Assembly (NCBI GenBank): GCA_017962375.1 | Contig: JAGCVJ010000010.1 | Span: 221,320 to 285,319 of the forward strand | Reading direction: 5' to 3' | DNA: 64,000 bases | Source of the DNA: Bacteroidales bacterium | GTDB lineage: Bacteria > Bacteroidota > Bacteroidia > Bacteroidales > UBA932 | Shown here: piece after piece, positions 14,963 to 17,619 of the stretch | Layout of the letters: each line of letters begins with the position of its first letter | Numbering within the stretch: the first letter of the stretch is position 1 | Translations under genes and position numbers: made by a program | The notes under the pieces: generated by a model | Database searches by the model: none | Told to the model about the DNA's origin: nothing | The model's input: only the letters and a program-made list of their open reading frames with translations

Positions 14963-17194
14963 TTAGCTGATTACAAGTCCGCCGTCTATGCAGTCTATGG
15001 TGATGGTGCTGCCTTTGGCTACCTTGCCGCCAATCAGTGCCTTGGCCACGTTGTTGATGACCTCCTTCTGGAGCAGCCTCTTGATAGGCCTTGCGCCGTA
15101 GGCTATGTCGAAGCCCTTGTCTGCCAGGTAGTCCAGAGCTTTCTCCGTGAAGTTCAGGGATATGTTCTGCGGCTCCAGCATCTTGGCTGCCTGGTCTATC
15201 TGCAGCTTCAGGATGCCGCGGATCTCGGCCTTGCCCAGAGGACGGAACATTATGATCTCGTCTATTCGGTTAAGGAACTCCGGGCGGACGGTGTGCTTCA
15301 TCAGGGCCAGTACCTTTTCCTTGCACTCGTCCAGCAGCTGCTCGTTGTGGGCCTTGTTGATTGTCATCTCGGCATACTCGGCGTTGTCCTTAGGGTCTGG
15401 AATTCCGTCGCCGTCCTTGTCGGTGAAGTCTACAATCTCCAGGCCTTTCATCTTGGACATGTAGCTCTGGATGATGTCGCTGCCCACGTTGCTGGTCATG
15501 ATCAGGATGGTGTTCTTGAAGTTGACCGTTCTTCCCTTGCCGTCTGTAAGACGCCCGTCGTCAAGCACTTGCAGCAAGATGTTGAATACGTCCGGATGGG
15601 CTTTCTCTATCTCGTCGAAGAGCACTACGGAGTAAGGTTTTCTCCTTACAGCCTCGGTCAGCTGGCCGCCTTCCTCGTAGCCCACATATCCTGGAGGCGC
15701 TCCCACAAGACGGGTGGCTGCAAATCTCTCCTGATATTCGCTCATGTCGATACGAGTCATCATATTCTCATCGTCGAACAGGAACTCTGCCAGAGCCTTC
15801 GCCAGCTCCGTCTTGCCCACGCCGGTAGTACCGAGGAACAGGAATGATCCGATAGGGCGCTTCTCGCTCTGAAGGCCTGCCCTTGAGCGCCTTACGGCAT
15901 CGGCTACAGCCTTGATTGCCTCGTCCTGGCCAATGACTCTCTTGTGCAGCTCGGCCTCCAGGTGCAGGAGCTTGTCCTTTTCGCTCTGCATCATCTTGGT
16001 TACAGGAATGCCGGTCCACTTTGCCACTATCTCGGCAATGTCCTCAGGGCTGACCTGCTCGTCGATAAGGCGGTGCTCATTTGCCTCGATCTTCTTGTTC
16101 AGCTCTTCGATTTCCTTCTGCAGGTTTGCAATCTTGCCGTAGCGGAGCTCAGCAACCTTGGCGTAGTCTCCGTTGCGCTCGGCGTTGTCTGCCTGGAACT
16201 TGAGGTTGTCTATCTCCTGCCTCTTGGCCTGGACGCTGTCGTAAACGGCTTTTTCCTCCTTCCACTGCTTGTTCAGCACCTCCAGCTGCTTCTTCTGCTC
16301 CTCGAGCTGGTTGGTGATGTCGGTCAGCTTCGGCGACTTGCCTTCCCTTCTGATGGCTTCTCTCTCGATTTCCAGCTGACGGATTCTTCGCTGAAACTCA
16401 TCCACTTCCTCCGGAACGGAGTTCATCTCCAGACGGAGCTTGGCCGCTGCCTCGTCTATCAGGTCTATAGCCTTGTCCGGCAAATGTCGGTTGGTGATGT
16501 ACCTGTGGCTTAGCTCTACGGCTGCTATGATGGCGTCATCCTCAATCTTTACCTTGTGGTGGTTCTCGTACTTAGGCTTGAGGCCTCTCAGTATGGAGAT
16601 GCTCTCTGCCGGAGACGGCTCGTCCACCATAACCATCTGGAAACGGCGCTCCAGAGCCTTGTCCTTCTCAAAGTACTTCTGGTATTCGTCCAGCGTAGTG
16701 GAACCCACGCAGCGGAGCTCTCCACGGCTAAGGGCCGGCTTAAGGATGTTGGCCGCATCCATTGCGCCGCTGGTCTGTCCCGCGCCCACAAGCGTGTGGA
16801 TTTCATCTATGTAGAGTATGATTTCTCCGTCGCTCTCCACAACTTCCTTCACCACGCCCTTGAGTCTTTCCTCAAATTCTCCCTGATATTTGGCACCCGC
16901 AATCAGAGCTCCCATATCCAGGGAGTAGATTACCTTACCCTTCAGCATCTGCGCTACATCGCCGTGCACGATCCTCTGGGCCAGACCTTCTGCAATCGCA
17001 GTCTTGCCCACGCCCGCTTCTCCCACGAGAATAGGGTTGTTCTTTGTACGGCGGCTCAGAATCTGGAGAACTCGCCTGATCTCGTCGTCTCGTCCGATAA
17101 CGGGATCCAGCTTGCCTTTCTCTGCCCTCTCGTTGAGGTTGATGGCATACTTCTCCAGCATCTTTCCTTGTGCCTGATTGTTCATTACATTCAT
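14963..17194 (-). CDS. clpB: ClpB disaggregase lacking the N-domain, with an aspartate-loop insertion
   Basis: A hexameric AAA+ unfoldase that would extract polypeptides from aggregates together with DnaK. D1 begins almost at once (Walker A GEAGVGKT at residues 58-65; IDEIHT Walker B). The coiled-coil middle domain (about 310-430) identifies ClpB rather than ClpA/ClpC. D2 has GTTGVGKT and the GAPPGYVGY pore loop. Usual ClpB is about 860 residues; here the roughly 150-residue N-domain is absent. The start is well supported: AGGAGG lies 7 bp upstream of the ATG and an in-frame TAA sits at 17224-17222. In D2, residues about 583-615 contain an insertion with [13 protein letters not shown] (592-604), unlike the family. 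The gene stands alone with its own terminator. Confidence 0.93.
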
Positions 17195-17413: not shown

Positions 17414-17619
17414 CATCTAAAGAAGCTGGAATGGGGACCTTTCGGCGATGGTGTCTTGTAACTCGTTGAAAATCAACGCGCCCCCAATATTACCTATGCG
17501 TTTTCGAGGGGTAATATTAGGGAGGCGCTGAATATCAGCCACTTACAGCGCACCATCGCCGAGCTGGCTCCCTCCCCAGTTTAGCTCATCGCTACATGGG
17601 GAGGGGACGGGTTTAGATG
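17414..17619. repeat. Nested inverted-repeat element with branched folding potential
   Basis: Arms seen by eye: CATCTAAA (17414-17421) with TTTAGATG (17612-17619); CGGCGATGGTG (17443-17453) with CACCATCGCCG (17551-17561); two small side hairpins (CGTTGA..TCAACG at 17464-17478 and GCTGA..TCAGC at 17527-17539); a central long stem whose arms share GGTAATATT (about 17478-17494 with 17510-17527); and CCCTCCCCA (17570-17578) with TGGGGAGGG (17597-17605). The symmetrical layout suggests a structured RNA or a small palindromic mobile element. No coding capacity. Confidence 0.6.

Follow-up and report, generated by a model that had tools for sequence, protein, structure and literature searches.

The control of ClpB/Hsp104 has been described as proceeding via the middle domains and Hsp70 (PMC5319980), and E. 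coli is reported to make both a long and a short form of ClpB (PMC6546751). According to PMC5540906, no protease partner of ClpB is known, and ClpA as well as an engineered ClpB carry a ClpP-docking IGL/F loop on their C-terminal surface; ClpB engineered to bear the ClpA loop has been described to interact with ClpP (PMC5540906, PMC11458177). A published ClpB signature of the Bacteroidetes is a deletion of 3 aa and no insertion (PMC1887533).

Loops of the Dx[DN]xDG type are described as binding a metal ion through side chains at positions 1, 3, 5 and 9 and through the backbone at position 7 (PMC10536834). They are thought to arise repeatedly, with convergence considered the likelier origin; homologues often differ in that one has a short loop without the motif and the other a longer loop that bears it, and rat CD2 acquired a Ca site when a DxDxDG loop was placed between its strands (PMC3123361). 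Inside cells, such loops are stated to be numerous in EF-hands and calcium blades only (PMC3123361), and the free cytosolic Ca2+ of bacteria is given as nanomolar (PMC5615198). A described case of an intracellular bacterial enzyme that binds Ca via such a loop (xDxDxDGxxD) is PepX of Lactobacillus helveticus, the activity of which showed no significant change with EDTA or excess Ca2+, while a double aspartate mutant was inactive (PMC10536834). Here, we describe a ClpB with a candidate loop of this type in D2, encoded within a stretch of 64,000 nucleotides from the genome of an uncultured Bacteroidales bacterium (hereafter the window).

Results

Judged by its profile matches, the open reading frame at 14963-17194 on the minus strand of the window is a ClpB, i.e. 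an Hsp100 disaggregase with two AAA+ modules, a D2-small domain and an M domain:

14963..17194, minus strand: clpB, 743 aa, comprising D1, middle domain and D2, without the N-terminal Clp_N domain

It matches Pfam AAA_2 (E 3.1e-68) and ClpB_D2-small (E 1.5e-22), and its top NCBIfam model is chaperone_ClpB with 1127.9 bits, which is under the whole-length cut-off of 1232.1, the top stretch beginning at profile position 148 of 853. In a comparison with the PDB, the nearest solved relatives are ClpB chains (best E 2.1e-260). Residues 7-580 align as a single stretch with residues 155-730 of E. coli ClpB, and the middle (M) domain between D1 and D2 presumably lies within this part.

The Clp_N domain is usual, but not essential, in ClpB. 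It is absent from the window ClpB and from the 30 ClpBs of the genus with a readable start, in which 32-112 codons of open frame precede GRDxE (30 readable starts of 33; loci L001 and L004-L033); in other families of the order, 180-204 codons precede it in 17 of 19 ClpBs, the remaining two, with frames of 864 and 871 aa, being unread. Of the 39 genus genomes, 34 have a Clp_N match, which lies beside the ClpC gene in 31 of these and on other contigs in G021, G031 and G062, and a comparison of coordinates placed it at ClpB in none of the 34. Many ClpBs of the wider family likewise have short open frames, among the matches listed, and short starts are also found in four named loci of other groups (L129, L134, L156, L161). 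An error in the start codon as the cause of the missing domain was ruled out: the frame stays open for just 9 further codons upstream, and the sole Clp_N match in the window's own genome (2.17 Mb, in an assembly that is 87% complete) lies in ClpC. The window ClpB thus has the D1-middle-D2 architecture of ClpB80, the N-domain-less isoform of E. coli; in contrast to the gene for ClpB80, it has no upstream frame for a long form, and the same is true for the 30 starts read in the genus. The window clpB can encode the short form only, and this absence of the N-domain is a peculiarity independent of the insert described below.

Upstream of clpB, at positions 17442-17562 of the window, lies an imperfect palindrome with arms of 53 nt (77%) and a gap of 15 nt. 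The stretch matches 12 places of the own genome, its own position counted in (21 alignments with E no higher than 0.01, and 70-84% identity if the self-match is left aside), and therefore represents a repeated palindromic (MITE- or REP-like) element; Rfam gave 0 matches in the region upstream of clpB.

Within D2 of the window ClpB, TSNVGSD, which we take to be the end of the sensor-1 strand, and RPEFLNR are separated by a linker of 63 aa (residues 574-636). A MAFFT alignment with an insert-less ClpB of the same genus (L024) and the own ClpC sets 30 residues of this linker apart, the exact edges depending on the choice of the aligner:

15476..15496, minus strand: TSNVGSD, residues 567-573
15362..15451, minus strand: 30-residue insertion, residues 582-611, relative to the insert-less ClpB L024
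15383..15421, minus strand: Dx[DN]xDG loop, residues 592-604, with positions 1, 3, 4, 5, 6, 8 and 9 invariant in 7 genomes
15266..15286, minus strand: RPEFLNR, residues 637-643

The original prediction had located a DxDxDG motif at residues 592-604, which indeed correspond to window positions 15421-15383, and had estimated the segment to be about 30 residues longer than in other ClpB proteins, which is borne out by the other families of the order, where 17 of 19 ClpBs have a linker of 33 aa and the remaining two have linkers of 35 and 42 aa. If ligands are assigned by sequence from the published motif (PMC10536834), those to be expected are D592, D594, D596, the backbone O of I598, D600 and perhaps D603.

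On both strands of the 2.17-Mb genome, DxDxDGxxD is encoded at 3 places only and the reversed control pattern at 0, and since the loop is in addition kept in 7 genomes despite many synonymous changes, its presence in the window ClpB is more than chance. Another of the three sites is found in a glycine-rich protein of 159 aa (L181 1381-1860, minus strand, contig C12 of the own genome, G000) with one EF-hand-like loop, DQDGDGDIDLKDI, for which Pfam returned 0 families at E up to 1. The third, DLDDDGVND, is part of a 643-codon open frame running off its locus (L180, minus strand, contig C10 of G000), which begins like a lipoprotein (SSLVSC) and contains DSDGDGYN at two further points.

Comparisons of the insert with known loop families gave sub-threshold matches. 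Pfam TSP_3 (PF02412) reaches 14.3 bits versus a cut-off of 25 (E 0.032) and, on the 63-aa query, is outscored by the unrelated family DUF5908, which itself stays below its cut-off with 16.5 bits versus 27.7. For two cuts of the insert, no EF-hand or dockerin match was listed in Pfam at E up to 10, under filters that drop most weak matches, and the loop yielded matches at chance level in the PDB, the best being caltractin (E 0.17).

The own ClpC carries VGY between sensor 1 and PEFLNR, i.e. in the same turn as the ClpB insert, and its loop GQGVGYATQTK falls into the alignment gap made by ClpB residues 582-611 (in the alignment with L024). In ClpC proteins, the loop at this turn serves to dock ClpP, and ClpX likewise carries a ClpP-docking tripeptide loop there. 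With the docking tripeptide defined as [LIV]G[FLY], i.e. beyond the IGL/F form, inspection of ClpB residues 574-636 found none. R643 of RPEFLNR aligns with residue 756 of E. coli ClpB (by the offset at which query 624 equals chain residue 737), and R756 is described as the AAA-2 arginine finger (PMC5319980). As far as the alignment tells, the insert sits shortly before the D2 arginine finger, and by homology it would lie on the C-terminal (exit) face of the ring.

The sample of the genus comprises 39 genomes, among them 2 without a match to the ClpB D2 query, 3 matching at the ClpC level only and 1 with a ClpB fragment (G011, 214 aa, left out of the counts). The three with ClpC-level matches and no ClpB match are G014, G025 and G031; as G014 is 92% complete, the loss of clpB may be true there. 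The D2 linker spans 21-73 aa in the genus (32 read of 33 ClpBs), and 7 of the 39 genomes carry the motif, namely those of L001 (the window), L004, L005, L006, L007, L008 and L035. Among named loci of the GTDB collection, the linker has 21-48 aa in the 79 readable of 80 and 33 aa in 42, where L083, L084 and L103 are identical in their last 300 residues to L073, L025 and L031 of the genus and are thus counted twice. D-x-[DN]-x-D-G occurs in none of 98 linkers (19 from ClpBs of other families of the order and 79 from named loci). The linker counts exclude the ClpC loci L002 and L003 as well as the overlapping loci L053-L082 save L070 and L073, with L022 and L134 being unreadable; a likeness-based family grouping of some of the loci L083-L127 had no part in them.

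A profile of the seven carrier linkers (A2) was run against even samples of 398 genomes of the family, 393 of the order and 395 of the phylum; as it consists of near relatives only, a DxDxDG-loop ClpB in other surroundings could escape it. In the family, it recovered the same 7 carriers at E 4.0e-36 to 9.2e-38, three long inserts without the motif in G027 (L009, E 2.1e-16), G033 (L015, 1.8e-14) and G036 (L010, 5.1e-13), and two marginal matches near E 1e-3, one to the ClpB of G006, which lacks the motif, and one to a 501-aa frame of G246, a genome that the ClpB query had not matched in the family search. In the phylum, the own genome alone matched at E 0.001. Matches in the order other than the own genome begin at E 8.5e-4, and 185 of the 393 genomes matched at E up to 1; of the 29 loci read among the matches listed, 25 contain D-x-[DN]-x-D-G in some frame, 14 are, as judged by eye, TSP3-like arrays with at least 4 units such as DRDGDGIPDYMDKCP, and a search of all 29 for three ClpB words, with the six frames translated, gave 0 hits. 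The profile searches hence gave no further carriers in the family, in the order (among the matches listed) or in the phylum sample. The loop is restricted to one clade and rare in the sampled genomes. The original prediction would have been refuted by the same insertion in most ClpB proteins of the Bacteroidota; all carriers found belong to a single clade within one genus, and the genus, family, order and phylum searches together with the linker lengths rule out a general trait of the phylum. An assembly artefact was likewise ruled out, as 7 separate genomes carry the motif.

In a tree of the ClpB body, the 7 carriers join L009, L010 and L015 with a support of 100/98. They do not form a clade of their own in the best tree (forks 84/56 and 93/96), and because two changes are needed, at least one loss of the motif is probable, unless the tree fails in resolution; one gain with a later loss and another history may both be compatible with it. 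In L009, L010 and L015, i.e. in 3 of the 10 clade members, the long insert lacks the motif, which is therefore dispensable there. L010 and L015 are separated by body-tree branches of 0.01 each, yet their linkers of 55 and 66 aa lie 11 residues apart, and the loop thus varies fast where the motif is absent. Long inserts at the same D2 turn also occur in another lineage of the genus (L012, L013 and L014, from G017, G006 and G024), with unrelated sequence, linkers of 57-65 aa and no metal motif.

In all 7 carriers, the loop reads D-x-[DN]-x-D-G followed by a later acidic or amide ligand, and the linker has 63 aa. In a parsimony count along the ClpB body tree, the codons for D1, D3, G4, D5, G6, P8 and D9 showed 12 nucleotide changes and 0 amino-acid changes; loop positions 2, 7, 10, 11 and 12 showed 14 nucleotide and 10 amino-acid changes, with only D or N at position 12, and the seven residues directly before the loop 16 amino-acid changes. 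The pN/pS ratio is 0.00 at D1, D3, D5, G6 and D9 versus 0.60 in the 8 residues preceding the loop, and 0.086 for the ClpB body, of which up to 390 codons were compared. Overall, 13 of 31 insert positions are invariant, six of which lie outside the seven loop codons. In tests that are post hoc, the positions having been picked after the motif was seen, and that use seven related sequences and a rough codon model (kappa 3), the probability of finding no replacement in the seven codons, given their nucleotide changes, is 5.5e-4 at an omega of 0.32 (estimated from the insert arms), 2.9e-3 at 0.23 (estimated from the linker outside the loop), 1.7e-7 if neutral and 0.077 at the body omega of 0.086, and a cruder positional test for D1, D3, D5, G6 and D9 all being invariant gives P 0.008. 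By these values, the constraint on the loop equals that on the ClpB body and exceeds that on the remainder of the insert. The conserved positions agree with the metal-ligand rule, the backbone-only position 7 being free, and the pattern is what one would expect of a Dx[DN]xDG metal loop on which purifying selection acts.

Discussion

From these comparisons, we consider it fairly probable that the insert is a true Dx[DN]xDG loop for a divalent metal, confined to one clade and placed at the turn in a helix-turn-helix after D2 sensor 1, and we would give similar credence to the binding of a divalent metal by this loop. The best reading of the sequences is that the loop arose in a single clade, at a surface turn that is permissive, and that selection, under which it apparently stands, then held it in most of that clade. 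The calcium-loop-like (Dx[DN]xDG) character claimed in the original prediction is hence supported by the spacing and the position-specific conservation. An insert that is harmless at the surface, as suggested alongside it, is a less likely description of the loop itself with its conserved ligand codons, yet three of the ten clade members lack the motif.

As to how such a site might work, the side chains of D592, D594, D596 and D600 together with the carbonyl of 598, and perhaps D/N603, would clamp one divalent ion, presumably Ca2+ where it is available and otherwise Mg2+ or Mn2+. The ion would close the loop and cap a helix beginning near N604/A605, by which the long surface excursion would become rigid instead of floppy. 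With one copy per subunit, the exit face would be ringed by six such staples, and from the capped helix the chain would run on to RPEFLNR with the D2 arginine finger. Whereas the sequences show the position, spacing, restricted occurrence and conservation of the loop, we infer the binding of metal, the identity of the ion, the helix, the rigidification, the location on the exit face and any effect on the ATPase or on partner binding.

Nanomolar Ca2+ is low for a lone Dx[DN]xDG loop. A structural role is more likely than a role in sensing. Ca2+ sensing or partner docking by the insert is possible, and divalent ions may tune disaggregation, as the original prediction had suggested. One could speculate about an ion-switched disaggregase, in which the six exit-face loops of the N-domainless ring would sense rising cytosolic Ca2+ (or another ion) in stress and, via the capped helix, shift the D2 arginine finger or open a partner-docking surface, although we regard this as quite unlikely.

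The constraint on the loop bears on the idea that the insert is simply tolerated at the surface, the turn being hypervariable in the genus and DxDxDG a transient state of an acidic, unselected loop. The linker lengths of 21-73 aa in the genus (32 read of 33), the unrelated sequences of the other long inserts (L009, L012-L015) and the three motif-less clade members would all agree with this; however, 12 nucleotide changes without a single replacement in seven loop codons beside freely changing neighbours, and a linker of constant length in all 7 carriers, speak against it, and we consider it unlikely. It seems more doubtful still that the conserved residues form a docking motif, i.e. that the acidic DGDGxPD segment docks a protein on the exit face in the way the IGL/F loop of ClpA docks ClpP, with or without metal. 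That the insert shares its turn with the loop of the own ClpC, and that ClpB engineered with the ClpA loop interacts with ClpP (PMC5540906, PMC11458177), would fit such a function, whereas the lack of an [LIV]G[FLY] tripeptide in residues 574-636 and a conserved spacing that obeys the metal-ligand rule and leaves position 7, which offers its backbone only, free to vary, would not.

With regard to the origin of the loop, it could be a transplant, brought in by recombination from a protein of the TSP3 type, rather than having arisen in place, and the top non-ClpB matches of the insert profile in the sample of the order are indeed largely TSP3-like arrays. Against this, the own genome contains two other DxDxDGxxD sites only and no donor-like DNA, a DNA donor there being ruled out by a next-best match of E 0.04 over 46 bases with 76% identity, although a donor could be missing because the assembly is 87% complete. 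As convergence is also considered the likelier origin of such loops (PMC3123361), a transplant appears very improbable to us.

The insert resembles each of several described systems in part. It shares its core spelling with TSP3-like units of the order, e.g. DRDGDGIPDYMDKCP in L199; in contrast to TSP3 repeats, it is one unit in a protein of 743 aa, without tandem copies or cysteine, and resides inside a ClpB. The loop of PepX, a calcium-blade-like xDx[DN]xDGxxD, has in common with it the D1-D3-D5-G6-D9 spacing, the free position 7, the location in a surface loop and the intracellular setting (PMC10536834), whereas the Ca2+ of PepX is crystallographic and the ClpB loop, on an AAA+ ring with six copies, is predicted from sequence. 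The ClpA-type ClpP-docking loop and the engineered BAP variant of ClpB use the same D2 turn, from sensor 1 to PEFxNR; unlike these, the ClpB insert lacks the docking tripeptide.

Within the open-access literature, outside of which most subscription papers fall, we found no report of a calcium-loop ClpB. What is new here is the presence of a known loop type inside a known machine, in D2 of ClpB, and for this we propose the mechanism outlined above. Sister lineages with and without the Dx[DN]xDG motif are here available for comparison in one housekeeping protein that is intracellular, and such series of loop-bearing and loop-less relatives have been described as hard to obtain (PMC3123361). If the metal site is real, D2 would represent another kind of control point in ClpB, located at the very turn where a relative docks a protease.
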